Made by a program: the position numbers and the translations under genes. Below are positions 2,220-21,855 of a stretch of DNA of 60,145 bases, one piece after another. The DNA lies in contig JAFYNL010000015.1 in the NCBI GenBank assembly GCA_017548075.1, positions 1 to 60,145 on the forward strand, written 5' to 3'. The notes beneath the pieces are model-generated. The model was not told where the DNA came from. It saw only the letters and a list, made by a program, of their open reading frames with translations, and did not search any database. This DNA comes from Bacteroidaceae bacterium (GTDB lineage Bacteria > Bacteroidota > Bacteroidia > Bacteroidales > Bacteroidaceae). The stretch's first letter is position 1, and the number at the start of each line of letters is the position of its first letter.

Positions 2220-3740
2220 TTATGTGCCTTTTATTATCACCCAATGACCTTCTTTGCGACCTCCTTCACGGGTTAGAACGCCCAATGACTGGAGTTGAGA
2301 GATATATCGCTGAAGTGTACGAAACTTGACATCTATCTTTTGTGCTAATTCACTTGTCGTAATACTAGGAAACTTTTGTATCTCAGAAATGATAATCTCC
2401 TGAATTTCAGACAATTCTTTTACGCCATCTTTTACGCCATCTTTTACGCCATCTCTATTCAAAATGACCTTATCTACAACGAAATCGGGATGGCATGGAA
2501 TGTCTATCAAGAAGTAGGTTCTTTCTTCGTCCGTCTCAATAGTTGCTTGCGGCGAACCGTTTTCACGCAGTTCATCTTGTATGGTTGGTATGCCTGTAGC
2601 CCTTCCTTCAGTAAGATCCAACTCTTTTAAAAACTCACCGAGCCGACGATTACGATAACGACGAGAACGAAGCGACTGACCTATGCGAACGGCTTCCATC
2701 GGTATAGTATGGTTCGGGCCAGAGAAACTCAATATCGATATACGTTCTGGCTCAATGGTTATCTCCACAGGCTCTTGAATCGTCCAATCGCGATGATATA
2801 GACTATTCACAACAGCTTCTTCCAATGCCTGATAGGGATAGTTGTAGAACGTTATCGACTGTTCTCTGTCCTTGGGTTTGATAATCTGCTTTTTGATGAC
2901 ATTAGTACGCAGGTAACTTAGCGTCTCCCGTATCATGGTAGGCACACAGCCTCTGATAGGTTCCACCTCAATAAGGTTGTTGGGGTTCTTTTCGCGTCCC
3001 TCTGGAAAGAGTACGATTTCCACCTGTGCTTGTTTGAAGAAGCGGTCGGGATGCTCAGCAAACATCATAGCTGCTACATTCTTGATGCGATTCCCTTCTG
3101 GTACTGGTTCTAATAAGTCCATCTGCTCCAGAACATCTTCCATGTGGTCGGTCAGCGGAATGTCAGCAAGGCTGCTCTTCACCTTCACCAGATAGTCATG
3201 CAGGAGCAATGGAGATATGTCTGTCAGTTTGATGTCATCGTTGCCCCTGTCATCAAACGGCATACGGTTGGCAAGGTTAATTAGTTCCCGTTCATATTCG
3301 TCCTTGGGGACGATACTGCTGCTGTTGTAGCGGATGTAGTAGTTGTATGTCTTCTGTTTCGCCGTAATTTGGTCGGGTACCTTGTAGGGACGACGCTCAC
3401 CAGGCGACACCTTAATAACGAGTATGGTCTTGCCGTCCACCTCTTCCACGTATAGTCGTGGCTGATAGTACGGGCGTATCAGGTTGTTGAAGCCCACCAT
3501 CTCCTTCTCGATTGGCTCTATCTGGTCTGGGTTGATGCCAATCACAGGACGGATGGCACGACCGTTCTCCTCCTTTACGCCAACTACGATGTAACCGCCG
3601 CCAGTTTCGTCAAAGTCATTGGCGAACGCACAGATGGTGCGGTATATGGCATCGGGATTCCAGCCCGTCTTGTACTCCAAGCGGTCACCTTCCACGGCAC
3701 GACCGCTGAGCAGTTCTTCTATGTTAATCGGTAGTCTCAT
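2220..3740 (-). CDS. AlbA/Schlafen-type DNA-binding ATP-binding protein
   Basis: This 506-residue protein looks like the COG2865 family. An N-terminal AlbA_2 (Schlafen-like) domain spans about 15-150 (ExDRLEYK, GGGYIVVGVKEENG). A middle GHKL-like HATPase_c_4 segment spans about 290-400 (EEAVVNSLYHRDW, then a GRATGIPTI turn), and a C-terminal winged-helix segment about 440-505 (ITTSELAQKIDVKFRTLQRY). Before the winged helix, three in-frame DGVK repeats come from a 12-bp tandem repeat at about 2424-2455. Such proteins are annotated as transcriptional regulators but are also common in defence islands. It is the last cargo gene, about 160 bp inside the attachment site. Its cellular role here is unknown: it may regulate the element or act against phage. 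Confidence 0.75.
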   Translation of the reverse strand: MRLPINIEELLSGRAVEGDRLEYKTGWNPDAIYRTICAFANDFDETGGGYIVVGVKEENGRAIRPVIGINPDQIEPIEKEMVGFNNLIRPYYQPRLYVEEVDGKTILVIKVSPGERRPYKVPDQITAKQKTYNYYIRYNSSSIVPKDEYERELINLANRMPFDDRGNDDIKLTDISPLLLHDYLVKVKSSLADIPLTDHMEDVLEQMDLLEPVPEGNRIKNVAAMMFAEHPDRFFKQAQVEIVLFPEGREKNPNNLIEVEPIRGCVPTMIRETLSYLRTNVIKKQIIKPKDREQSITFYNYPYQALEEAVVNSLYHRDWTIQEPVEITIEPERISILSFSGPNHTIPMEAVRIGQSLRSRRYRNRRLGEFLKELDLTEGRATGIPTIQDELRENGSPQATIETDEERTYFLIDIPCHPDFVVDKVILNRDGVKDGVKDGVKELSEIQEIIISEIQKFPSITTSELAQKIDVKFRTLQRYISQLQSLGVLTREGGRKEGHWVIIKGT

Positions 3741-3829: not shown

Positions 3830-4717
3830 TCACTCTATCAATTTCTTCTCCAACAATCTTTTGTAAAAAGATGGTGACATCCCCCAACTCTCTATACTAT
3901 AGTTGAATAGGTCAACTATTTTATTTAATAACTGATTCGTAGAGAGATTTTTCCATGACTGTGTGAACTTATCGAGACAATCATTGGTATGTTCATTATT
4001 ATAGCCTATAATTATTTCAAGAGAATTCTTCTGAGGAATTATGTTTATAAAAAAACAGTCTATTATTTGGCCATTTTGAATTCCTTCTGTAAAATTTACA
4101 AAAGTATCGTCAAACATAAAATAAGTAGAGGTGCCTGATGCAAAAACAGGAATAAAAGGATATGTTAGATGTAGAAAGGTGAATTTGTTTTGTGGTTTAA
4201 CAATTTCTGTTTCAAACACCCCTTTGTAATACCTCAAATCTTCCAACCCTAATTTTTCACCTAATAACAATTCAAATTTGACATTGTCTTCGATCAAAGT
4301 CCCATTATATCTTTCTATATTAAATTCCTTTTTTCTAATTTCTGAACACAAGCTTCGATACGAAAATAAGAGTTGAGAATGATAATCGTCAAAGTCAATT
4401 AATTTCCCTTCGATAGGCTTGAATAGAGCACTATCATGTTCGCTACAAAAGAGAGGATATGAAATAGCTTGCCCTATCCCAACCTTTTTTATCTCTACAA
4501 TTTCATCATCATTTATCCGACGATAGACATCTTTTATTCGTGCTTCGTATAGATGCCCGTTCTCGGCAACATTATCTAAGATTCCATTCCTCTGGAGAAG
4601 ATGGCTATTGATAGCGGCTTTTTGGCAATTGGGACACAAACATGGCCACTTTTTCTTTTCAACAAACCGTTCTACTTCGTCGATTTTGTTTGCAATCTCC
4701 AAGTATTCGTTATCCAT
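3830..4717 (-). CDS. Hypothetical cargo protein with N-terminal cysteine/histidine cluster
   Basis: The 295-residue product is not recognised. Its N-terminus has CLCPNC followed by AINSH (about residues 26-39) and a later CSEHDS (about 93), which could bind a zinc ion. The CxxC...SH layout is reminiscent of zinc modules seen in nuclease-like defence proteins, but no HNH or other catalytic motif can be made out. There is no signal peptide or membrane helix. It lies 128 bp downstream of the HIRAN gene and 89 bp upstream of the AlbA-type gene, on the same strand. A possible -7 box (TAATTTTG, plus 4744-4751) suggests it may have its own promoter. Base composition is more AT-rich than the flanking chromosome. 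Confidence 0.6.
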   Translation of the reverse strand: MDNEYLEIANKIDEVERFVEKKKWPCLCPNCQKAAINSHLLQRNGILDNVAENGHLYEARIKDVYRRINDDEIVEIKKVGIGQAISYPLFCSEHDSALFKPIEGKLIDFDDYHSQLLFSYRSLCSEIRKKEFNIERYNGTLIEDNVKFELLLGEKLGLEDLRYYKGVFETEIVKPQNKFTFLHLTYPFIPVFASGTSTYFMFDDTFVNFTEGIQNGQIIDCFFINIIPQKNSLEIIIGYNNEHTNDCLDKFTQSWKNLSTNQLLNKIVDLFNYSIESWGMSPSFYKRLLEKKLIE

Positions 4718-4845: not shown

Positions 4846-5838
4846 TTACTCTTGAACAATAAGATTGATTTGAAAATACTCTTGTATGTATTTTATTAAA
4901 GATTCATATTGAGACCTTGTTTTCCTTTTTCCATTTAATTCATTCAGATCTTTTAATGTTATAACATATTCCTTTCCCCTTTCAAATTCTGTGAAGAAAG
5001 ATTTGAGACCTAAAACCAGTTTTTCATAACATTGGCGTGGTTTCAAGTCATCATAAACTATTTCGAACACAATTTGAATTTGTTTTTCATCTGTTATAGA
5101 GAATGATAGTAACTTGCCCTCAAGTGGACCATTCTGCTCAGCTCTTACATTTAAATACTTTGAGTTCAAACGGCCAAAGAATCTATGCCTTTTTGCTTCA
5201 CATTCCAATTGATTGTCATATCCACTTCTTAAAATAAAATCATGTCCAATAAGAGCATTTAAATACTCCGTGTATTTTTCAAATATTTCATTGGGAATAT
5301 TGGCTATAGCCTGTACAACAACATGATTACTGTATTCCATCTTCCTATCCACATGAACATGTGCTGACAACGTAGCATGAAGTGTATCAAATGGTTCTGA
5401 AGAAACAGAAAAATGATAATTTTCGCTCATACTCAATAATTCTAATACATCTTCCGTCTCACTCCGACTAATATACCCTACACATTTGTCTTGGAAAAAC
5501 ACGGCAATTGCATTATGGTCATGTGGATTGTCTGGTTCTTTAACTAATTCAAGTTTGTCGCCAACCTTTATTCCAACAGCTCTTTCTTGGAATGCATCAT
5601 AATAGTCATGATGTCTTAAGCCTACAACCCAAAATTCTTCTTCTAATATCTCTGTGTATGAGACTTCTATGCCTGAATCTTTTGAATTTGACATTTCTAC
5701 AATGTCAAATTCCACATCTGGAAGGTCGTCGAATATTTGATAAACTGTTCGATAGTAACCTCCGACGATTGTTCCTGGATAAAAAGATTTGAGATGCTTT
5801 TGAGTAAAAAAATCGTTTGCCATAATCAAATAAGACAT
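4846..5838 (-). CDS. HIRAN-domain protein, candidate Zorya accessory factor
   Basis: The 330-residue protein contains a HIRAN domain at about residues 60-150: VVGLRHHDY, then EPDNPHDHNAIAVFF and VGYISRSE. HIRAN domains bind DNA ends, single-stranded DNA or stalled forks, for example in the SNF2 protein HLTF. Here the domain is encoded apart from the SNF2 enzyme, in the gene directly after zorD. A TTG at 5847 overlaps the zorD stop, and the first ATGs in frame are at 5838 and 5823; 5838 is used here. The near-overlap implies co-transcription and probably translational coupling with zorD. The C-terminal ~180 residues match nothing I recognise. I infer that it helps the helicase or nuclease step find phage DNA. 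Confidence 0.75.
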   Translation of the reverse strand: MSYLIMANDFFTQKHLKSFYPGTIVGGYYRTVYQIFDDLPDVEFDIVEMSNSKDSGIEVSYTEILEEEFWVVGLRHHDYYDAFQERAVGIKVGDKLELVKEPDNPHDHNAIAVFFQDKCVGYISRSETEDVLELLSMSENYHFSVSSEPFDTLHATLSAHVHVDRKMEYSNHVVVQAIANIPNEIFEKYTEYLNALIGHDFILRSGYDNQLECEAKRHRFFGRLNSKYLNVRAEQNGPLEGKLLSFSITDEKQIQIVFEIVYDDLKPRQCYEKLVLGLKSFFTEFERGKEYVITLKDLNELNGKRKTRSQYESLIKYIQEYFQINLIVQE

Positions 5839-5843
5839 TAAAT

Positions 5844-8600
5844 TCAATTGATATTTGCCACTATGTTAAAAAGCCTCGCTCCCAATTCTTCCACCTTAAC
5901 TTCTGCCTTTTCTGTGGGATAGATAGTGGAAGTGGCCAAATGACTTTTGCGGGCAAGCAAATCATCAAGTGTCACATCAAAGGCTTGGAAGTTTGGGCTG
6001 ACGGCCATAGGATAATAGACATAGACATCCTTTGTCTGTCCTATTCTATAGGCACGGTCAGTTGCTTGCCCTTCCTTTGCAGGATTCCAATGGCGACTAT
6101 AATGAATTACATGGTTAGCCGCTGTGACATTGAGACCTGTGCCGGCAGCAATAGGCGACATAATGATGACGTTGAAGCCCTGTTTCTCCTTGAATGCGTC
6201 AACGCTTGCTTGACGCGAAAGATTGTTGACAGACTTCGTGCTTGCTGGAGTATCGCCATTGACAATCTTGGCAACAATCCCATATTGTTCCCACACAAGA
6301 CGTTGAAGCAGTCGTTGTATTTCCCTACGCTCAGAGAAAATGATTACTTTCTCATTACGCTGTTTTATGCGATTGAGGAAAGCAACCGTTACCTGCAATC
6401 GAGCTGAAGTATTGATAAGTTCCGGCAGTTCCCTGTCATGCAACGTAGAGTCGTAGAGATATGGATGTTCTGACACCTCGCGAATATCTTGGATTGTCAG
6501 GAGGATGTTCGGTTGAATACCATTAACATAGTCACTCACCACATGCTGATAGGTATCTTCTTGGACTTTGGGCATATCCCTCCTCTCTTTGATTTCTATC
6601 TTCTCTGGCAGGTCTCGCGCAACATCGCTTTTTACACGTCGCAAGAAATGCAGGCCCAACGTCTCGTGTATCTCATTGCCGATTGCCAGAAGGTCTGTAT
6701 CTTCGTTCCTTAACGGACTCTGGTATTTTGCAGCGAAAGCCTTTGCATTTCCTAGCAGCCCAGGTACGCAGAAATCCATGATGCACCATAAATCCAAGAG
6801 TGTGTTCTCAACAGGTGTTCCAGTCATCGCTATTTTGAAGGTACATTTTAAGGCCTTGGCTGCATTTGTCACCAACGTGCCAGGCGTTTTAATCTTCTGC
6901 GCTTCGTCCAACACAACGACCTCGAAATCCACAGCACAGAAGTTCAACTGTGAATTTCGCATCGTTTCATAACTGGTGAGAATCAGGCTCAAGTCCTGCA
7001 TGGCATTTATGACTTGCTGATTAAATTGGCGTGGAACATCAGAGGCCATTAGGCGTTGCACTTTCAAAGCTGGCTCAGCAAAGAATCGCTTGTATTCTGC
7101 TTCCCAATTCTCCAAAAGAGTGACTGGCGCAACAATCAAATAGGGCTTATGCCTCTCGTGGTTTCTTGCGTGCCAATCGAGGAAGTATAACACTTGCAGG
7201 GTCTTACCCAATCCCATATCATCTGCCAGAAGGCATCCGCCAGCATGATTCAAATACAGATGTTGCAGCCAAGCAATACCTTCCTGTTGATGTGGTTTCA
7301 GTTGGAAATCTGGAATGAGGTAGTTGTTTTTGTAAAGAGTGTAGCGTCCTTCGTCAACCAAGTTCGACCGTTCTTGCTTGTAACCAAGTTCTTCAGCATT
7401 CTCTTCAATGATCAACACCTCACGTCCGTTCCTGTTACGTTCGATGGGCTTGTCTGGGTGCGACAACTGTTCACGCGCCATTTGAGCAAGGAACTTTGCG
7501 TCATCCAAGCCTATCATAGCATCCTCGTATGAGAGTATATCCTTACCTTGTGATTCTGCTTCTTCAATGAGTTCTTCAAATTCTGCCAGTTCTTCCTCAT
7601 CCTCAAATTGAATATTCGTGGTGCCGTTCTCTGGTGTTTCCACCTGCGCCCCAGCCACCCATTGTGATTTATAAGGACTGATGAAGGGGTAGAACTTAGG
7701 TTTGTAAACACCTATTTCGATAACACGGTCGCTATAGAAGTCTGACAAGTCAAACTGTTCTGGGTCAAAGTATTCAGTTGGGTGTTCTATAACGTCCTTT
7801 ATCTCCTCTTTGGTGTGGAATCTGCATTTGCGTTGTTTCAGAGGTTCCAACTGTTTCTGCTGTTCGTCATTAAAGATGATTCTGGTTCTTTCGCCCGCCT
7901 CATTCTGAACAGGATAGACGGACATCATCCGACGTGACCGTTCAAATGTATTTTGAAAACTGTCATTCTGTGCCACATCCAATGACGGAAGCACCTTCAT
8001 CCCATCTTCTTCTCTTGAAACAGAGAGTTTGATGGTCTCTGGAGCATAGACGTTTTCGTTTTCCAAATAACTATCAAGAAGGCAACCACACGCTTTAGCT
8101 TGCTCCTTAATTATGGCAAAGTGCCTGAGGTTAAATGACAGGTCTTTTTGCTCACTACCAGCAGAGTTGAAATATTCTACAAGTTCGAACAACTTATACA
8201 GTGGTTCTTTCAATAAGTATCTGTCTTTCCCACATTCAACGACGTTTCCAGTTCTTTGGAAAGGAATGATATTACCATTAGGAAGAGAGGTGACGAGTTC
8301 CAGATGATATTTGAAGTTCTGTTCGTTCAACATTCCGTCGCCTTGAAGTCTAACACCTTTAGCGTAATACGATGGGATGCCAAGTAGCATTTGGTCAAAA
8401 TTACTTAGCAGGTAAATACAATCAAAAGGCACAATAATTTCATTTTCCTTGATGATTGCATTGCCATTGTCGGCCAACATGGAGAGGGGCAGATAATAGA
8501 TGCTGTCATCTGTCTCTTGCCATTGAGAGCAAGGGATAATCTTGCCATTATTTATGGAAGTGAAGGTAAAACCTGCTGAAGTAATAGTATTTGACAACAT
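5844..8600 (-). CDS. zorD: ZorD-like SNF2 helicase of a Zorya anti-phage system
   Basis: This 918-residue protein has a long N-terminal region (1-430) of unknown fold and a full SNF2 helicase module at about 435-880. Visible are the Q-like LKPHQQEGIAWL, Walker A DDMGLGKT near 460, DEAQ near 565, TGTPVEN for motif III, and motif VI ATDRAYRIGQ near 852. In type I Zorya, ZorD is the SNF2-type effector that acts on invading DNA once the ZorAB motor has sensed damage at the envelope. No Mrr-like or other nuclease motif is obvious after the helicase. The ATG at 8600 is preferred to the TTG at 8606. It sits 14 bp after zorC and overlaps the HIRAN gene's TTG. Confidence 0.82.
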   Translation of the reverse strand: MLSNTITSAGFTFTSINNGKIIPCSQWQETDDSIYYLPLSMLADNGNAIIKENEIIVPFDCIYLLSNFDQMLLGIPSYYAKGVRLQGDGMLNEQNFKYHLELVTSLPNGNIIPFQRTGNVVECGKDRYLLKEPLYKLFELVEYFNSAGSEQKDLSFNLRHFAIIKEQAKACGCLLDSYLENENVYAPETIKLSVSREEDGMKVLPSLDVAQNDSFQNTFERSRRMMSVYPVQNEAGERTRIIFNDEQQKQLEPLKQRKCRFHTKEEIKDVIEHPTEYFDPEQFDLSDFYSDRVIEIGVYKPKFYPFISPYKSQWVAGAQVETPENGTTNIQFEDEEELAEFEELIEEAESQGKDILSYEDAMIGLDDAKFLAQMAREQLSHPDKPIERNRNGREVLIIEENAEELGYKQERSNLVDEGRYTLYKNNYLIPDFQLKPHQQEGIAWLQHLYLNHAGGCLLADDMGLGKTLQVLYFLDWHARNHERHKPYLIVAPVTLLENWEAEYKRFFAEPALKVQRLMASDVPRQFNQQVINAMQDLSLILTSYETMRNSQLNFCAVDFEVVVLDEAQKIKTPGTLVTNAAKALKCTFKIAMTGTPVENTLLDLWCIMDFCVPGLLGNAKAFAAKYQSPLRNEDTDLLAIGNEIHETLGLHFLRRVKSDVARDLPEKIEIKERRDMPKVQEDTYQHVVSDYVNGIQPNILLTIQDIREVSEHPYLYDSTLHDRELPELINTSARLQVTVAFLNRIKQRNEKVIIFSERREIQRLLQRLVWEQYGIVAKIVNGDTPASTKSVNNLSRQASVDAFKEKQGFNVIIMSPIAAGTGLNVTAANHVIHYSRHWNPAKEGQATDRAYRIGQTKDVYVYYPMAVSPNFQAFDVTLDDLLARKSHLATSTIYPTEKAEVKVEELGARLFNIVANIN

Positions 8601-8614
8601 ACACAAATCGAAAA

Positions 8615-10441
8615 TTAGTCCAAAATAATCTCAATATTATCACCATGTAAAGGATAGAATATTATTTTCTTGTCAGAAAAATCCCAAAGAGATAGGAAAC
8701 CGAGATAATCGTCCTTTTCAGAGGTGTGGTAATACACTTCCTCATAATTTTTCTTTTTCTTAACCCATATACTGCCATTAGAAATATATTTCATGTCGGC
8801 TATGCGAGTCAATTTGTCTGAACTGCTAACACGCAAATAGACCCCATCACCAAAGGCCTCCACACGGCATATACCTCCAAATAGCAGCTTACTAATAGCC
8901 AACGGCTTCCCGTTGTGTCTTTTTGGCTTCTCCGTATACTCTGATTGATACGTCTCACATTGAGAAGCGGTAGGTAACTGTGAGAATTTATAATCTTGCG
9001 GTCTTTTGTAGTCAATTTTTATCTTTTGCCTCATCCAAGCATTGATTCTCTCTCGCCAGTAATCAGAATGTAATAAACGGCCTTCATCGTGATATTTAAT
9101 CCAGCTTTGAGATTCATATCCGTGATACCATTTGCCATCACCCTCAAATCCGTCAATGAGGAGGTTTATAGATGGTTGCTTTAAATCTTCCACTCCATCA
9201 ATCACAACATTATCCATAGTTATTCCACGAACTTTGGGGTGAGTACGATTATATATATACAAAGCCCCCTTATCCGAAAATTCCACAAAGACCTTGTTGC
9301 TGATATAAAGTACAAGTGCCGAAGTTTGCCTCTTTGCTGACCTTGTTGTGATATAATAGCTACCAATCAAATCACTTACTCTATCATCGCTCAGTAATTT
9401 GGTTTTCGTGGCTTTGGAACCTACAATTCGAAAATCATAGACGAAGGGGACATATTTTATCCATAGTTCTTTTCTCTTCGGATCTTGAACGCACAGTTCA
9501 AAGAATGTATTGATGGCTTTTCTGGCATTCCATTGATTAACCAACGCCTGAGACTTCCGCAATTTTTCAATCTCTTCTTGTGTAGCATTTGGGAAAGGTG
9601 CCCACGTACTCGATAGAGCAATGTCACCAAGTATTGCATGTGCGAATTTGCTTACTCGTGTTTGCATGGGTTCTTTGCCTTCTTTTTCTGCCTGCTCTAC
9701 CATCATTGCCAGAATAAGTTTCTTAGTTCTGTCTAATTGATGTTGTGCAAAGACTACTTCCAATAGGTCAACCTCAATAGTTCCACGGAGATTGAAATAA
9801 TGCAAGATGACATCAGAGAAATATGAGAATGACAGGGTAGATTCTTTATAATCAAATATCGTTGGGGCTTCCAAAACAGACTTTGATTGATGAACCAATA
9901 GCGTAGCCATCCGTAACGGCCCATTTGCATCAAGAAAGTTTGCGTGATTTTTCAAAGCCAGAAAGCGTTGATTGCTCCCATCATACATTTCCAGTTTTCT
10001 TTTTAGCAGGTTGCTGATACAGTCTTTATGAACTTGTTGAGGTGATAGCCAGTCATTCAGCAAACAGAATAACAAGCCATTGAAGAACATATTCCTCCAA
10101 TTTTGGTCAAGCAAATTGATAGCATAATCAAATGCTATTGTATCATTGTAAATTTGTCCTAAATTATACGATAAAATTCTTAGTTCTATAGGTGACCATT
10201 CATTGAAATTTGCACCAACTTTCTTGGAAAGCCTTTTTGCTTTGGCTATTACCTTGTCCACAGACTCTTTTGACGCAACGACCTCTCCACCGTCGGAAAA
10301 TCGTTCTGATATTCTTGACAGCTCTCGTATCCGCTTCTCTAACATACGCTGCATCTGCCCATCAACAACCAGATTTGCTTGCAAAGCAAAATTGTCGATG
10401 ATGTCAGGTGTCAAACCGAGGTGTTGATAAGCAGTCTTCAT
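8615..10441 (-). CDS. zorC: ZorC-like protein with EH-signature region
   Basis: The 608-residue soluble protein has, at about residues 270-340, the tryptophan/arginine-rich helical stretch (STWAPFP, then FFELCVQ and ELWIKYVPFVYDFRIVG) that fits the EH_signature region of ZorC. ZorC is thought to bind DNA or link the ZorAB motor to ZorD. Its position between zorB and zorD supports the call. The start ATG shares one base with the zorB stop (10441). A further ~200 residues at the C-terminus (from about 400) with many aromatic and lysine residues are not explained by the EH region. The assignment depends on context as much as on motif. Confidence 0.75.
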   Translation of the reverse strand: MKTAYQHLGLTPDIIDNFALQANLVVDGQMQRMLEKRIRELSRISERFSDGGEVVASKESVDKVIAKAKRLSKKVGANFNEWSPIELRILSYNLGQIYNDTIAFDYAINLLDQNWRNMFFNGLLFCLLNDWLSPQQVHKDCISNLLKRKLEMYDGSNQRFLALKNHANFLDANGPLRMATLLVHQSKSVLEAPTIFDYKESTLSFSYFSDVILHYFNLRGTIEVDLLEVVFAQHQLDRTKKLILAMMVEQAEKEGKEPMQTRVSKFAHAILGDIALSSTWAPFPNATQEEIEKLRKSQALVNQWNARKAINTFFELCVQDPKRKELWIKYVPFVYDFRIVGSKATKTKLLSDDRVSDLIGSYYITTRSAKRQTSALVLYISNKVFVEFSDKGALYIYNRTHPKVRGITMDNVVIDGVEDLKQPSINLLIDGFEGDGKWYHGYESQSWIKYHDEGRLLHSDYWRERINAWMRQKIKIDYKRPQDYKFSQLPTASQCETYQSEYTEKPKRHNGKPLAISKLLFGGICRVEAFGDGVYLRVSSSDKLTRIADMKYISNGSIWVKKKKNYEEVYYHTSEKDDYLGFLSLWDFSDKKIIFYPLHGDNIEIILD

Positions 10442-11127
10442 TACTCAATTGATCTTTTAGCGGCAATCTCTTCCAATTGTTTCTCTGCATTGGTGCGAAC
10501 ACGAAATTCAACGCGACGTGAGAGTTTCTTGTCTTCCTGACCATCTTTCATGATTAGATGGCTGGAGGACAGACCGTTGGCTGTTATCAGAGCTTTGGCC
10601 CATGCCATATCATCTTCTGGCATCATATTCAAACAGTATTGAAGAACGGCTCTTGTCCTGTTTTGCGACAGTTCCATGTTGGAGAAGTAACCGCCGTTGC
10701 TATTAGTGTGGCCCTCTATTCTTATTTCTTCAATATTGTCTTTATACTGTGGACGCATCAGTACTGCAATATAACGCGGGAAGAAATCATCGAGGATGCC
10801 CTTGAAATTCTGTTTCAGATTGTCGTCACCTTCATCAAAAAGCATAGACGGCTCTTGGAAGCGGACACATAAAGTAGAATCTATGGTTGCACGCCAAACG
10901 GTTAAGTCCTCTTTGAATTCTTCTTGTAAGTCAATATAGAGTTGCGTCTTTATCTGGTCATAGCGCTTGACAATCTCTTCGTCCTGTTCTGCTTTTTCCT
11001 GTACCTGCAGCATAGCACCCATGAGCAGGAGAATGAAGATAAACAAAAGGCCTGCCATGAGGTCACCAGTAGAAAGTGCAAATGCATTTTCCTCGTCGTT
11101 TTCTATGTCTCTGTTTCTTTTCTTCAT
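10441..11127 (-). CDS. zorB: ZorB-like MotB/OmpA-type motor stator protein
   Basis: The 228-residue protein begins with a short cytoplasmic segment and one membrane helix (about 21-40, GDLMAGLLFIFILLLMG). The aspartate at position 22 corresponds to the proton-carrying residue of MotB-type stators. The periplasmic part ends in an OmpA-like peptidoglycan-binding domain (about 135-220) with IEGHTNSNG and MELSQNRTRAVLQY. In Zorya, ZorB forms a proton-driven complex with ZorA in the inner membrane and anchors to the cell wall. Start ATG and the zorA stop overlap by 4 bp (ATGA), so the two are translationally coupled. There are no flagellar genes in the window, which rules against an ordinary MotB. 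Confidence 0.85.
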   Translation of the reverse strand: MKKRNRDIENDEENAFALSTGDLMAGLLFIFILLLMGAMLQVQEKAEQDEEIVKRYDQIKTQLYIDLQEEFKEDLTVWRATIDSTLCVRFQEPSMLFDEGDDNLKQNFKGILDDFFPRYIAVLMRPQYKDNIEEIRIEGHTNSNGGYFSNMELSQNRTRAVLQYCLNMMPEDDMAWAKALITANGLSSSHLIMKDGQEDKKLSRRVEFRVRTNAEKQLEEIAAKRSIE

Positions 11128-13100
11128 TTCTGCCTATGTTTGTCAAGTGCGTCAACAAATAATTCGGCTATATCACTTTGCCTTTCAATTGTGCCAGCTA
11201 ATGCATCTGTTGTTTTCGTCAGATTCATCGAATACTGTTCCAGGTATTTCTGCGTGCTGGCTTGCATGGTCTGACTGTATTCTGTCAGTCCCTTCTGAAT
11301 CTGTGCGAAGATTGCTGTCAGCCCATTCTTTATCGTTTCAAATTTTTCAACATAATCTTCTGAGAGTTGTCCAGAGTCATCCAACAATGTCACTACTGAA
11401 TCTATAGCTCGTTGCGTTTGTTTCTGCAATTCCGTCATGTTGCCAGTATATTCATTCTGTGCTTTGTGGAATACTTCCGTCGCAGTCTTCATGTCGTTGG
11501 TGATCATTTGCAAGTGTGCCGTGCTACCTGTGATTTGACCCTGTGCTTGTTGGAAGGTGTTCATTGTTCCAATAATGTACTCGTTCATCTTTTCCAGACG
11601 CTCCAATCCTGTATTGAATTGAGCCAACAGCTTTTCTGTTTCAGACATGGTGCTCTCTTGTAGAGCCATCAAGTCTGTTTGCTTGTCGCTGATGTCATCG
11701 GTGATAGATTTCATAGACGACTGAACCGACTCAGAGACATTTGCCATAACGCCATTTAAGAATGTGCCCATTTGCTCAGAAGCGGCAGACAACTTCGTAA
11801 TCATTTCCTGACTGCTTTGTTCAGACGTTTGGGTCAAGGAAGTCATAATCTCCTTCACCTCCGTCATCGCATTACCTATAGCGCCTGTTGCGAATGCTAT
11901 CTGTTCCTGCATTTGCTTCATGGCAGAAGCGTTAGTATTGGCAGACGTATTAGTGATTTCAGAAATAGCATCCTTCACTTCTGCTATTGTGACTTGCAGA
12001 ATAGATGTTACGTTCTCCATATTCTTGGGGAACATGCCCATCGACGTTGTTGCTTCGGAAAGAGATGCTACCAATTGCTCTAATTCGTGAGAGGCAGAAC
12101 TGGATATGTTGGAACGGAATTCTGTTATGAGCGAGCTCATGCTCTTCTTTAATTCGTCAATAACCGTACCAATCAAATCAGTTGCTGGTGTGGTGACAGT
12201 ATCTGCCATCTGGTCAACATGCTCTATAAGACTCTTGGTTGATGAATCAATATTCTCCATCAACGGAATAATCTTTGCCTGCATCTGACGTGACAGTATC
12301 TCGTCAAATCCGTCGTTGAGCTGCATGGCAAGGTCTGTAGAGAACGACTTTAGGGCCTTGGACTGTTGCTCGCTTTCTTTGAGAATGTCCCTTATGGCCA
12401 GGCTAACAGAAATTCTCTCACCAGATTCATTCACAAACGAGAGTTGAGGTTCTAAAAGTTTGAGCAACAACTGTTGGTCATCAATATAGAACTCGCTGTC
12501 GAGTCTCTCTGACAGGTCTGTGATAGAGCCTAGTAACAAATTTCTGTATCTCTTTTCTATTAATGTATAGACGATTGAAAAGCCCATGCCGAGCAGAGAT
12601 GTCAAAAAGGCTGTGCTCATACCATCAAGCAATGACTGAATACTGGATTGTATGTTCTGCACATTGGCGGTGTCAAAATTACGAACACCCAGAGTCAATC
12701 CTAAGAAAGTGCCAAGCAAACCAAGACCTACTAATGTGCCTGAAGCTGCATCGATGATTCGCAAGTTTAGGTTATTTATCCTTGTTATCTTACTAACTGA
12801 AAAGATTTCAGAAGATGGAATGTTTGTTTTCTTCAATCCATCAATGTTGTATGCCAGCGTCTTTTCATACTCATCCCAAAGGGTTGAAAGACTTGATGTT
12901 CTGATGCTTTCTATGATATTTTCATCATTCTTTACTTGACTGACGATACGGTAAGCACGATTCTCTATCCAGATATTCCATAAGGCATACAGGAAGAATG
13001 ATAGAATTACGACCAGACTGGCGGTTGTCACACCATTCAATAATAAGACAGCGGCCGCTGCAATAATTGTTAGGATAATCCAAAGTGTTGAGCGTATCAT
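11124..13100 (-). CDS. zorA: ZorA-like MotA/TolQ-type motor protein with long cytoplasmic tail
   Basis: The 658-residue protein has two N-terminal helices (about 5-45) and the MotA/ExbB pair at about 120-145 (LVGLGLLGTFLGLTLGV) and 160-190 (GMSTAFLTSLLGMGFSIVYTL). About 450 residues of helical, Ser/Thr/Gln-rich coiled coil follow. MotA itself has no such tail, but the long tail is the hallmark of ZorA, where it forms a cytoplasmic shaft that passes the signal to the effectors. ZorA pairs with ZorB in a proton-driven ring. It follows the HTH gene by 2 bp and overlaps zorB by 4 bp, so the whole cluster reads as one operon. Confidence 0.85.
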   Translation of the reverse strand: MIRSTLWIILTIIAAAAVLLLNGVTTASLVVILSFFLYALWNIWIENRAYRIVSQVKNDENIIESIRTSSLSTLWDEYEKTLAYNIDGLKKTNIPSSEIFSVSKITRINNLNLRIIDAASGTLVGLGLLGTFLGLTLGVRNFDTANVQNIQSSIQSLLDGMSTAFLTSLLGMGFSIVYTLIEKRYRNLLLGSITDLSERLDSEFYIDDQQLLLKLLEPQLSFVNESGERISVSLAIRDILKESEQQSKALKSFSTDLAMQLNDGFDEILSRQMQAKIIPLMENIDSSTKSLIEHVDQMADTVTTPATDLIGTVIDELKKSMSSLITEFRSNISSSASHELEQLVASLSEATTSMGMFPKNMENVTSILQVTIAEVKDAISEITNTSANTNASAMKQMQEQIAFATGAIGNAMTEVKEIMTSLTQTSEQSSQEMITKLSAASEQMGTFLNGVMANVSESVQSSMKSITDDISDKQTDLMALQESTMSETEKLLAQFNTGLERLEKMNEYIIGTMNTFQQAQGQITGSTAHLQMITNDMKTATEVFHKAQNEYTGNMTELQKQTQRAIDSVVTLLDDSGQLSEDYVEKFETIKNGLTAIFAQIQKGLTEYSQTMQASTQKYLEQYSMNLTKTTDALAGTIERQSDIAELFVDALDKHRQK

Positions 13101-13102
13101 AC

Positions 13103-13348
13103 TTAATTCTTGTGTTCTTTTGCGATTTCCAGTGACAAGAGATAGGACTTGTATTCCCGCACTATTAGTTCCTTGATGTCAACCTCCAATAAGTCGGCTA
13201 TCTTTAGCAGACTATTCAAGTCTGGCTGCGAAGAGTTGGTACACCATTTGGAAACCGTAGAGGGTGTAACCCCCATCTGCTCTGACAGCCATTTGTTGGT
13301 ACGTTTCTTTTCTACCAGCACCAATTTAATACGATTTATATCTTCCAT
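13103..13348 (-). CDS. XRE-type helix-turn-helix regulator of the Zorya operon
   Basis: The 81-residue protein is a compact Cro/C1-type HTH: MEDINRIKLVLVEKKRTNKW, then LSEQMGVTPSTVSKWCTN and LLKIADLLEVDIKELI. The ATG at 13348 is chosen because a -7 box TATCTTTG lies at 13368-13375 just upstream. A longer frame from 13390 would start upstream of that promoter. It is the first gene of the zor operon, 2 bp before zorA, so it probably controls its own and zor expression. Confidence 0.8.
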   Translation of the reverse strand: MEDINRIKLVLVEKKRTNKWLSEQMGVTPSTVSKWCTNSSQPDLNSLLKIADLLEVDIKELIVREYKSYLLSLEIAKEHKN

Positions 13349-13367
13349 ATAATTCGATTTTACGGCA

Positions 13368-13375
13368 CAAAGATA
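13368..13375 (-). promoter_or_regulatory. Promoter -7 box of the zor operon
   Basis: TATCTTTG on the minus strand, 19 bp before the HTH start codon, matches the Bacteroidetes -7 consensus. A clear -33 TTTG at the usual distance is not seen, which would suit a regulated promoter. Confidence 0.6.
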
Positions 13376-13487
13376 GTGAAATAAATTCAATTTTACGAAT
13401 TTCTTTTTGATGTCATATATTTTTTCTCGCTTTTTTATACTTTTTTACGAGTTTTGCCAAGTCAAAAGTTCATTTAATGATTTAATG

Positions 13488-14060: not shown

Positions 14061-15293
14061 TTATTTACCTCGATTCCATCTTCTCGCCATCGGCTTGCAT
14101 AGCCAGTTGGCTTTCATGGCACAGCGTCTGGCCCATTCCAGTTCGTCCTCGTCCTTGTCCTTGCCCCAGCCAGTGCCAGTTCCACCTCCGCCTCCGTAAG
14201 ATTCTGACATGGCAGTGGCAGCATCGGCATAGTCCAAGAAAAGCAACATGGCAACTTTCAGAATGTCCTCATGTGTGGCATCGCTGTTCTCTGGAACCAC
14301 AATATTGCAGTCAAGTTCCTTGTATACTCTGTCAGGGATGCTGAGTTGTTTCTGCTCGCCATCGATGAAGAAGACTTGTTTGTAATCAGTGGATGGTGCG
14401 GTAGGCTTGGCTTTTGGTGATGAAGTCCGTGGCATTGGTAAACTATCGGCAATCGGTTTCTTGCTGTCCACAGATTTCAGGACTTGTACAGCTGTTTGTT
14501 TTTGGACAGGATGGAGCTTTCCCCATGTCGTTTCTATCTGCGACGGCATCAGTTTCCTACCTGTTCCAAGTTCCGAGGACTTATAAGAGGAGTTGCCCAT
14601 CTTGATGGAATAGCCTCTGACCACCTTCTCCTTGTCACGCTGTAGTTTGACCTTGTAGCCCCGCTTGGTCAGCATGGTTTCGTAATCCGCCCAATCGAAG
14701 CGTGGCAGCGATTTGAGTATATCCATGCAGTCATTGGTTATCTGTTGGAGGTGTTCTTCCCGTATCTCCATCGGGTCTTTCCAGCCGTGGCGTTGATTGA
14801 TGGCTTGGGCAGCTGCCACGGCTCTCTCTCCTATAAAGTGACAGTCATTGATGTTGCCATCCTTGTCAATGCGGTTCACCACCAGATGCAGGTGGGGAAT
14901 CCCTGACTTGGCATCATAGTGGAGAGCCGCGAAGTACTGCGAGTTCTTGATGTTCGTCCTGACAAGATTCTTGTGCTTGCCATCTGGTGTCTTGGTCACC
15001 TGATCGAGTTCATTCACGAACACTTCCGTGAAGCGTCGCCAGTCATCAAGTGTCCATCCATCGCTCTCGTTCATGGATGGGGAAACCTCGATGCGTATGG
15101 ACGTTTTGTCAATGGGCTTCCGTGCGAACTTCTGCTTGAAGCGGTTCATGTGGAGCACCATCTCGTCCCACATGCCTATCGGAGGCAGATCCTCTGTCAG
15201 GAGGTTCACCTTCACGATGTCGGCACGGAAGTCTTTAGTCGCATAGTTGGTCATGGCCTGGCCATGCTCTATAGGTCTTGCGGTTGCTATCAT
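14061..15293 (-). CDS. mobA: MobA/VirD2-type relaxase
   Basis: The 410-residue protein has the relaxase layout. Near the N-terminus are GQAMTNYATKDFRADIV and later SIRIEVSP. The metal-binding histidine motif PHLHLVVNRID lies at about 131-140. Relaxases nick oriT and stay bound to the DNA strand during mobilization. A short proline/serine-rich linker and a glycine-rich stretch (SYGGGGGTGTGWG) occur in the C-terminal third. It lies 19 bp after the mobC-like gene, so they form one mobilization unit. Together with the absence of transfer-apparatus genes, this makes the element mobilizable rather than self-transmissible. Confidence 0.85.
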   Translation of the reverse strand: MIATARPIEHGQAMTNYATKDFRADIVKVNLLTEDLPPIGMWDEMVLHMNRFKQKFARKPIDKTSIRIEVSPSMNESDGWTLDDWRRFTEVFVNELDQVTKTPDGKHKNLVRTNIKNSQYFAALHYDAKSGIPHLHLVVNRIDKDGNINDCHFIGERAVAAAQAINQRHGWKDPMEIREEHLQQITNDCMDILKSLPRFDWADYETMLTKRGYKVKLQRDKEKVVRGYSIKMGNSSYKSSELGTGRKLMPSQIETTWGKLHPVQKQTAVQVLKSVDSKKPIADSLPMPRTSSPKAKPTAPSTDYKQVFFIDGEQKQLSIPDRVYKELDCNIVVPENSDATHEDILKVAMLLFLDYADAATAMSESYGGGGGTGTGWGKDKDEDELEWARRCAMKANWLCKPMARRWNRGK

Positions 15294-15312: not shown

Positions 15313-15693
15313 TTATCCAATGAATTTCTCTCTAATCGCGTTCCATTGCCTGATAAGGTAGTTGATGCCTTCTATCCATGCCTCCATGAAACGCTCGTTT
15401 TTGAAATAACGCTTCCTCACCTCCTGCGGCAGTCCGTGAAGGGCATTGCGGATGCCGACGAGCTCCGACCTTGCAGCGGAGAGGTTTTTCAGTGCTTCCT
15501 CCTGTCCCTCGGTCATAAGTTGCTTAGGCTGGTGTCCAAGGACGGTGTTATGGACGTACAGGCTCTTGGGCATTCCACATTTGGCAGCATTGGCTACAAT
15601 CTGTTTGTATTCTTCTTCCGTGAAGCGGACATCAATATGGTGTCCCTTGTTCTGCCTCTTTTCTGAGGTCTTTGATTTTTTCTCAGTTGTCAT
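15313..15693 (-). CDS. mobC: MobC-like relaxosome accessory protein
   Basis: The 126-residue protein begins MTTEKKSKTSEKRQNKGHHI and has the ribbon-helix-helix-like segment IDVRFTEEEYKQIVANAAKCG, then an arginine-rich helical part (NLSAARSELVGIRNALHGLP). This matches the MobC/plasmid mobilization relaxosome family, which helps the relaxase open oriT. The ATG at 15693 is preferred; an extension to 15822 would add an unlikely leader. The upstream gap is where oriT is expected. Confidence 0.8.
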   Translation of the reverse strand: MTTEKKSKTSEKRQNKGHHIDVRFTEEEYKQIVANAAKCGMPKSLYVHNTVLGHQPKQLMTEGQEEALKNLSAARSELVGIRNALHGLPQEVRKRYFKNERFMEAWIEGINYLIRQWNAIREKFIG

Positions 15694-15904
15694 ATTTCTA
15701 TTTTGATTAAAGGTGGTTGTAAATGTATTGCTATTGAGAGATTGAAGTAAAAGCCTTGGACAACCCGGTGCGAGCCTGCGAGCGGCACAAGAACCCAGTG
15801 GAAGGACAGTGCAGCGGAGCAAATCTGTCAGACATTGGGACTTCTTGTTTAGACCTCAGAAAAAATCACTCTTCTTCGGGCTTGTCCGTGGCTTTATCCT
15901 TCTG
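15694..15904. other. oriT: Candidate origin of transfer region
   Basis: This 211-bp gap lies directly upstream of mobC-mobA, the usual place of oriT in such elements. It contains a GC-rich patch with a short direct repeat (GCGAGCCTGCGAGC, about 15770-15783) in otherwise AT-rich DNA. The nick site cannot be identified by eye. Confidence 0.35.
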
Positions 15905-18853: not shown

Positions 18854-19999
18854 TTATTGCCCCACGACTTTTAGTTGCACCGTCTTCACAGGTCGAAGGG
18901 TGATACGGTTTACCGACTCACGTTTGCTCTCGTCAGCCATATTCGCATAGATCTGCGTGGTCGAGACGTTCTTGTGACCCAACATGTGCTGGACGGTATA
19001 GACGCTAGTTCCTGCATCCACCTGTAGGGAACCGAATGTATGTCGGCTGCAATGGAATGAAATCTTCTTGGTGATGCCAGCGGCTTTCAGCCAGTTCTTC
19101 AAGGGTGTCTGAGTAAGTTTGTCCGTGAAACCAGTGAAGACGATGCCAGTTCCTCTCTCTCCAATCAGCTCCAGTGCCTCGTCACTGATGGGATTGTTCA
19201 CAAGTTCCTTGGTCTTCTGCATTCTTAGCGTGACGTACATGCCTCCGTCACCGTAAGGCTGTATGTTCTCCCATGTAAGCTGTTTGATGTCGCTCTTTCT
19301 CAGTCCTGTCAGACAGGCAAAGAGGAAAGCAGTCTTTAGAACTGGATGGTCGCAAGGCGTGTTCGCCAGCTTTACAAGTTCATCCTTAGACAGATGTTCT
19401 TTCTCAGTCGGGATGGTGTCAATACGTTCCAGGAATCCGTTGGGATTCTCCATGATCTTGTGATCCCTATAGGCCGTATGGAGTACGGCACGGAAGGTTG
19501 ACCAGTAGCCAGCCACGCTGTTGATGTGCAGTTTGTGTTCTGTGTGGATGGTCTGCGGAGCGGTCATCAGATACTCACGGAACCTGTTGCAGAAGTCAAC
19601 ATTGATTTCATCGAAACGGCACTTATTGTTGCAGAATCGGGCGAAGTGCTTATAGACGTGCTGCCACTTGCAGTTCTTCTTGTCTGCCTTCATCTTGAAG
19701 TAAGCAAGGAAGTCGCCTTTCATCTTTTCCTTGTCAAAGAAATCGTAACGTTCATTCACGATACTCTCGTAGCGACGGCAACGGAGGGCTTCTGCCTTTT
19801 CACGCATACGGTCGTTGTAGTCCTTTTCTCTTTGGTTCTTAGGCTTTGCATAGATGTAGATGCCGAGCGATTCATGGCGCATGACCTTCATGGTGGACTC
19901 GTCCCGATAGCCAGGATAGTAGTCGAGATAGAAGGAAAGCTGTTCTCCGCCTTTGATTTTCCGTGTGCGGAGTGTCACGGTCTTGCAGATGTTACTCAT
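18854..19999 (-). CDS. int: Tyrosine recombinase (integrase) of the element
   Basis: The 381-residue protein has an N-terminal arm-binding segment, a SAM-like core-binding domain (about 100-190) and a C-terminal catalytic domain. Visible catalytic residues are Arg in TGLRKSDIKQL (about 235), HxxR in FHCSRHTFGSL (about 318), His in LGHKNVSTTQ (about 342) and the nucleophile Tyr in QIYANM (about 350). It catalyses insertion and excision of the element. The target is not a tRNA gene but a short site in a BspA-type gene. Its upstream region carries the operator palindrome. Confidence 0.92.
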   Translation of the reverse strand: MSNICKTVTLRTRKIKGGEQLSFYLDYYPGYRDESTMKVMRHESLGIYIYAKPKNQREKDYNDRMREKAEALRCRRYESIVNERYDFFDKEKMKGDFLAYFKMKADKKNCKWQHVYKHFARFCNNKCRFDEINVDFCNRFREYLMTAPQTIHTEHKLHINSVAGYWSTFRAVLHTAYRDHKIMENPNGFLERIDTIPTEKEHLSKDELVKLANTPCDHPVLKTAFLFACLTGLRKSDIKQLTWENIQPYGDGGMYVTLRMQKTKELVNNPISDEALELIGERGTGIVFTGFTDKLTQTPLKNWLKAAGITKKISFHCSRHTFGSLQVDAGTSVYTVQHMLGHKNVSTTQIYANMADESKRESVNRITLRPVKTVQLKVVGQ

Positions 20000-21445: not shown

Positions 21446-21456
21446 CTCTAAATACA
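21446..21456. other. att: Attachment site junction, integrase side
   Basis: The arm CTCTAA (21446-21451) lies inside the element and TACA (21453-21456) is the crossover sequence shared with 2045-2048. Right of it the N-terminal BspA coding sequence runs on without interruption. Confidence 0.65.
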
Positions 21457-21855
21457 GTATAGAAACGCGTTAATTTGGATGACTCTAACTTTCTTAGGGA
21501 TGATGATGGAAGTCAAACCGCTGCAATCATAGAAAGCATAGGGACCGATAGTGGCCACATTGTCACCAATAATGACAGATGTTAGGCTGACACAATCTTG
21601 GAAGGCACTAGTACCAATTACTTGCACATTATGATTAGTGCCAGTTGATAGTGTAATCTTTGAGGGAATAACAACGGCACCAGAATAGGAATTATAGCTC
21701 TCATTCTTATAAGTTACTGTGGCATATGAAGTGGTACCAGAAGTAGTTAAATAGTAATACAAACCCTGATGTTGAAATGTTGAACCAGAATCTGCAAAAA
21801 TGTTAATGCTGACTATCATTGCCAACAAGGTAAAAATGTAATGTTTTGTTTTCAT
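21453..21855 (-). pseudogene. BspA-like protein, N-terminal part, cut by the mobile element
   Basis: The fragment has an ATG at 21855, a signal peptide (KHYIFTLLAMIVSINIFA), a short N-terminal domain and then BspA repeats (AFQDCVSLTSVIIG, AFYDCSGLTSIIIP). The frame meets a TAG at 21448 just inside the element, giving a 135-residue truncated product that ends INAFLYCI. The matching C-terminal part is at 666-2048. The summed length across the inferred joint is 1,782 nt, an exact multiple of three. The truncated product may still be secreted but is unlikely to function. Confidence 0.85.

Follow-up and report, generated by a model that had tools for sequence, protein, structure and literature searches.

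The SNF2 helicase gene of a Zorya-type defence operon on contig JAFYNL010000015.1 of a Bacteroidaceae bacterium (a stretch of 60,145 nucleotides, hereafter the window) is followed directly by a gene for a HIRAN-domain protein, and the question raised by this locus is whether the HIRAN gene marks a new subtype of Zorya, as proposed in a preliminary description of the sequence, or is a local addition to a known one. The comparison of related loci makes it likely that the operon is a type I Zorya with an Mrr-less ZorD and an extended ZorC, carried as mobile cargo, in which HIRAN is an accessory and not a core subunit. The six genes lie close-packed on the minus strand in the order that had been described: a Cro/C1-type helix-turn-helix (HTH) gene (13103-13390, likely ATG start at 13348; Pfam HTH_3, E-value 7.6e-10, and HTH_26, 6e-10), zorA, encoding a MotA/ExbB-like stator protein of 658 residues with a long tail (11124-13100), zorB, encoding a MotB/OmpA-like stator protein of 228 residues (10441-11127), zorC, encoding an EH_Signature protein of 608 residues (8615-10441), zorD, encoding a SNF2-type helicase/translocase of 920 residues (5844-8606), and the HIRAN gene (4846-5847, 333 residues as the longest open reading frame, likely ATG start at 5823). 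The HTH gene and zorA are separated by 2 bp, zorA overlaps zorB by 4 bp and zorB overlaps zorC by 1 bp, while zorD follows zorC after 8 bp if read from a TTG start or after 14 bp from the ATG at codon 3.

By gene content, with zorA, zorB, an EH_Signature zorC and a SNF2 zorD adjacent on one strand, the operon is a type I Zorya, complete though divergent, and its zorABCD genes are intact with conserved motor and ATPase motifs. Profile searches upheld the earlier family calls for ZorC (Pfam EH_Signature, 7.7e-18; PADLOC ZorC1, 2.8e-12) and ZorD (PADLOC ZorD1, 1100 bits; Pfam SNF2-rel_dom, 7.9e-55). ZorA matched PADLOC ZorA1 (9.4e-28; ZorA2 also matched), Pfam MotA_ExbB (5.6e-6) and the ZorA of PDB entry 8qyk (7.7e-16), and ZorB matched PADLOC ZorB2 (1e-75) and ZorB1 (1.1e-71), Pfam OmpA (3.7e-11) and PDB entry 8vvi (2.3e-40). 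Across 20 aligned zorABCD loci (the window, L051-L060, L070-L072, L075, L076 and the plasmid loci L101-L104), ZorA T131 and S168 are identical, ZorB D22 is always Asp, as expected of the transmembrane aspartate, and the ZorD helicase motifs DDMGLGKT and DEAQ are always present. The Thr and Ser of ZorA at these positions are presumably needed for function. ZorB D22 aligns with residue 24 (Asp) of 8vvn chain B, which is taken to be the Shewanella ZorB of PMC11890865 because its ZorA also has 696 residues; in the available excerpts of that paper ZorB D24 is "crucial for defense" in types I and II, and Na+ is bound by the conserved Ser/Thr.

The window operon has in common with the type I systems of an E. 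coli plasmid (L101) and of Shewanella (PMC11890865) the A-B-C-D gene order, the conserved Asp, Thr and Ser of ZorAB, the EH_Signature ZorC and the SNF2 ZorD, but it is divergent from them. All four proteins score below the NCBIfam type I equivalog cut-offs (ZorA1 60.6 against 750 bits, ZorB1 45.5 against 400, ZorC 23.5 against 490 and ZorD 578.9 against 1500), which are a naming rule and not a definition of Zorya type I, and the best-scoring models for ZorB are those of type II ZorB. The window further differs from both systems in the HTH gene in front and the HIRAN gene behind, and in comparison with PDB entry 8qy7 its ZorD is shorter before the helicase, the alignment starting at residue 286 here and at residue 423 there.

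The 20 loci represent fewer than 20 independent ones, since L051/L054 and L059/L060 are near-identical pairs. In the set of 295 genomes of the order, ZorD gave one other near-full-length match (G066, 46%), the remaining matches being shorter, confined to the helicase and at most 247 bits; three others were found among 151 genomes of the family, two others among 395 of the class, and four others in 395 of the phylum, one of them previously found and two weak. An alignment of the ZorD N-terminal part scanned over genome contigs gave the ten loci L051-L060 and had no relative in viral contigs. The L055 and G066 hits were counted once, as were the L057 and G587 hits; two genomes with weak ZorD matches (G896 and G1139), whose operons were not examined, stand outside the 20 loci; and the four plasmid loci were picked from 70 matching records (36 Bradyrhizobium, 23 Klebsiella). 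Three loci (L057, L058 and L075) have the order zorB-zorA-zorC-zorD, with zorB ahead of zorA.

The proposal of a HIRAN-coupled subtype does not survive this comparison. A HIRAN gene lies behind zorD in one of the 20 type I loci, namely the window, and in none of the five other members of the clade to which the window ZorD belongs (see below); the search for a conserved HIRAN neighbour of zor genes gave no second HIRAN-zor locus. The position is instead taken by a Fic/Bro-N gene in L051 (L051:12765-13637, gap of 16 bp) and L054 (L054:12763-13635, gap of 14 bp) and, in L056, by a flavin-reductase-like gene at a distance of 61 bp, while L053 has an opposite-strand gene and none on the same strand directly behind zorD, and L052 lacks a long open frame between zorD and the contig end, a stretch of 495 bp. 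Outside the clade, the L055 contig stops 92 bp behind zorD and its genome has no HIRAN match. Apart from L077, another HIRAN gene in the genome that contains the window, the HIRAN query found no match in the related zor loci. The Pfam family PF08797 matched two of 21 genomes or records (those of the 19 other loci, G896 and G1139), both on other contigs (G1288, the genome of L052, where the position of the match exceeds the length of the zor contig, and G1139, the latter below cut-off), and one of 14 control genomes. The variable slot behind zorD, which may hold HIRAN, Fic/Bro-N or nothing, illustrates a way in which defence operons may gain accessory genes. The zor operons of L051 (a Barnesiella record) and L054 (a Muribaculaceae record) are near-identical, each with the Fic/Bro-N gene behind it, and this suggests a recent transfer of the operon.

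What sets the window operon apart together with its relatives is found in ZorD and ZorC. In a ZorD tree of 20 rows, five of which deviate in composition (four of them plasmid) and one of which (L103) is a long branch, the window forms a clade with L051-L054 and L056 (support 100/100). Pfam scans with E-value limits of 0.01 to 0.1 (0.1 for the window ZorD; L054 and L060 were not scanned) found a C-terminal Mrr_cat domain in 10 of 18 ZorDs (L055, L057, L058, L059, L070, L072, L075, L076, L102 and L103) and none in the other eight (window, L051, L052, L053, L056, L071, L101 and L104). The domain is thus missing from all five clade ZorDs scanned and carried by eight of the nine Bacteroidota/Fibrobacterota ZorDs scanned outside the clade; the ZorD of L054, at 915 residues, is close to that of L051. 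The E. coli plasmid ZorD (L101:6723-9971), annotated as type I, is like the window ZorD in having no Pfam Mrr_cat match, and in the available excerpts of PMC11890865 ZorD is described as bearing an Mrr-like nuclease domain. The homologous ZorABCD of L055, L057-L060, L070, L072, L075 and L076, whose ZorDs are 32-49% identical to that of the window (several over the N-terminal half only), differ in a longer ZorD with C-terminal Mrr_cat (all eight scanned, L060 being unscanned) and in a shorter ZorC.

ZorC has 608 residues in the window and 617-657 in the five other clade members, as against 358-483 in the other ten Bacteroidota/Fibrobacterota loci, where the lowest value (L058) may come from a broken or misread gene. 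The surplus is a C-terminal extension common to the six clade members (about residues 490-608 in the window), so that by sequence the clade is marked by a ZorD without the Mrr domain and by a ZorC lengthened by a further domain at its C terminus. The four plasmid ZorCs have 560-606 residues, and a long ZorC is therefore not specific to the clade; nor are Mrr loss and ZorC extension strictly tied, because L071 lacks both. The extension is modelled as all-beta at low confidence (mean predicted local distance difference test score, pLDDT, of 58.9) and the model has no match in the PDB at an E-value of 0.001; the idea that it is a nuclease was dropped on these grounds. With these operons type I Zorya gains a divergent clade from Bacteroidales, whose member in the window lies next to genes of a mobile element. 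If the operons work, the Mrr domain of ZorD would be dispensable, or its loss offset by the changes in ZorC, throughout the clade, and this would bear on which protein of type I Zorya cuts DNA.

The overlap of the HIRAN start with the zorD stop, reported in the preliminary description, amounts to 4 bp and holds only if TTG 5847 is the start; the ATG at 5823 (residue 9) leaves a gap of 20 bp behind zorD, and the gap is the likelier arrangement because this Met is aligned in all four rows (the window protein and three relatives) and opens one listed open reading frame of a relative. The protein matches Pfam HIRAN (PF08797) at 2.2e-10, above the gathering cut-off, and is also HIRAN-like in fold, and its top PADLOC match is the candidate defence family PDC-M03B (2.6e-12). 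In HLTF a HIRAN domain is fused to the protein's own SNF2 helicase, so that HIRAN and SNF2 form one polypeptide there and two separate proteins in the window; the window HIRAN protein and HLTF have in common an NPxDxNAI stretch. A second HIRAN-like domain (residues 184-268), suggested by eye from the model, found no support in hhalign (probability 0.1). The G+C content of the gene is 0.328, as against 0.39-0.44 for zorA, zorB, zorC and zorD, and its G+C at third codon positions (GC3, 0.254) is lower than in any of the 1,190 slices, each of 334 codons, that zorA, zorC and zorD yield (0.356-0.518), zorB being too short for any such slice. This mismatch points to a separate acquisition of the HIRAN gene, though it is no proof.

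L092-L094, from the same genus, are the closest relatives of this protein; they are free-standing, have the HIRAN domain in common with it and align from residue 70 to residues 330-332 with 23-26% identity; zor queries had no match in the stretches fetched around them. Among the 295 genomes of the order the protein was matched in 16 others (best 35.2 bits), and the matches of its phage relatives (12 records) and of those on viral contigs (55 loci) fall within residues 39-161, around the HIRAN domain. Searches with the single HIRAN protein found nothing in plasmids at an E-value of 1e-5, and the pattern search of viral contigs was negative. Besides the gene behind zorD, the window's genome has a HIRAN gene on another contig (G000:C47:12651-12851, the L077 gene), and the L052 genome, which has the nearest ZorD, carries a relative of the window HIRAN protein on another contig (L166:1273-2055).

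The HIRAN protein might be a fifth Zorya subunit at this locus, binding the ends of phage DNA and guiding or licensing the Mrr-less ZorD in the manner of the HIRAN-SNF2 pairing of HLTF, and if HIRAN does act with ZorD, the locus would offer a direct way to test how phage DNA is found by ZorD. Its start at the zorD stop or 20 bp past it, the fold and NPxDxNAI stretch held in common with HLTF, and the missing Mrr_cat, which 10 of 18 scanned ZorDs possess, are consistent with such a role; we nevertheless consider it unlikely, as the gene is behind zorD in none of the 19 other type I loci (the five other clade members included), its composition does not fit the zor genes, and the E. coli plasmid has a zorD equally without a Pfam Mrr_cat match and no HIRAN match of its own. 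A more specific version, quite unlikely in our estimate, is that in the Mrr-less ZorD lineage the missing nuclease or DNA-engagement domain would be replaced in trans by the downstream HIRAN DNA-end-binding protein, a prokaryotic split form of the HLTF pairing. Strict replacement of Mrr by HIRAN is weakened by seven loci (L051, L052, L053, L056, L071, L101 and L104) that have neither an Mrr hit nor a HIRAN gene behind zorD. The AT-richness of HIRAN extends to the next gene on the same strand (3830-4717, 295 residues, with a possible zinc-ribbon-like cysteine cluster noted by eye), 128 bp away and also with a G+C content of 0.33, and this gene may have come together with HIRAN. The two would then form a separately acquired defence or regulatory unit borrowing zor transcription, in keeping with the PDC-M03B match and with the available part of PMC11706625, where HIRAN genes adjoining HipA genes are predicted to act in phage defence or as antitoxins. 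That reading appears very unlikely, however: the 3830-4717 protein has no family in Pfam (E-value 0.1), PADLOC (0.001) or NCBIfam (0.01), the neighbourhoods of L092-L094 gave no homologue of it, and the two downstream proteins that were scanned do not resemble HipA.

Most likely HIRAN is an accessory gene or cargo in its own right, and it is probably a local acquisition and not the hallmark of a new subtype, because no second HIRAN-zor locus was found, its composition is mismatched and its relatives are free-standing. Three observations weigh against this assignment. With the genes on the same strand, almost no gap between them and no terminator-like site on the minus strand near the zorD-HIRAN junction, co-expression of HIRAN with zor is likely on sequence grounds, and a functional link possible. 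The clade as found has only six members, of which L051 and L054 are near-identical, so that a rare HIRAN-bearing branch may have been missed. The genome with the nearest ZorD, that of L052, does hold a HIRAN-family relative, although on another contig.

A mechanism for the operon can be outlined on the model in the available excerpts of PMC11890865, where ZorAB is an ion-driven sensor stator and ZorC and ZorD are effectors acting on DNA. By homology with Zorya systems that have been studied, ZorA and ZorB of the window would assemble into an ion-driven rotary stator tethered to peptidoglycan. This stator would sense the entry of a phage and, by way of the long ZorA tail, bring in ZorC and the SNF2-type ZorD, which would act on the DNA. 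HIRAN would occupy the variable slot behind zorD, probably after separate acquisition, and would probably be transcribed by read-through from the zor operon, its fold suggesting that it may bind DNA or DNA ends. The open-licence literature gave no HIRAN-Zorya link, which does not imply absence from print, and nothing on PDC-M03 or on HLTF residues: the word HIRAN has no occurrence in PMC11890865; the PADLOC survey of 7,742 type I and II Zorya systems (PMC8565338), where ZorF and ZorG are named as new associated genes, does not contain the word either; Zorya is not mentioned in the available parts of PMC11706625 and PMC11090510; and in the portion of PMC12948488 at hand the HIRAN match is an author name in the references.

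Finally, the surroundings indicate how the operon may have travelled. Upstream of zor, on the same strand, are genes for a tyrosine integrase (18854-19999; Pfam Phage_integrase, 2e-22), a NikA-like mobilisation protein (15313-15822; Pfam NikA-like, 1.3e-10) and an MbpB-like relaxase (14061-15293; Pfam Relaxase, 3.5e-8; NCBIfam MbpB, 8.1e-24, 84.6 bits and thus under the cut-off of 400). A BspA-type leucine-rich-repeat gene on the minus strand is present in two pieces (666-2024 and, with a signal-peptide-like end, 21448-21855) that flank the zor/relaxase/integrase block, an arrangement suggestive of the insertion of an element of about 19.4 kb into this gene. No match of at least 8 bases was found between the two junction stretches compared for terminal repeats, and positions 1-30000 contain no tRNA gene. 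It is probable that an integrative mobilisable element carries the Zorya operon as cargo. Modules with a related integrase are present in G1182 and G1230, where the 19.9 and 14 kb fetched, respectively, gave neither a ZorD nor a HIRAN match, and on a 3,472-base contig of the window's genome, which is too short to reveal cargo. The HTH gene is a probable regulator of the operon; L051 and L054 have a homologue immediately 5' of zorA, and none was found in L052, L053 or L056 at an E-value of 0.001. A gene for a Schlafen/AlbA-type ATPase also lies near zor on the minus strand (2220-3740), and relatives of it are located near zor in L070 (L070:11484-13442) and L071 (L071:10913-11944).

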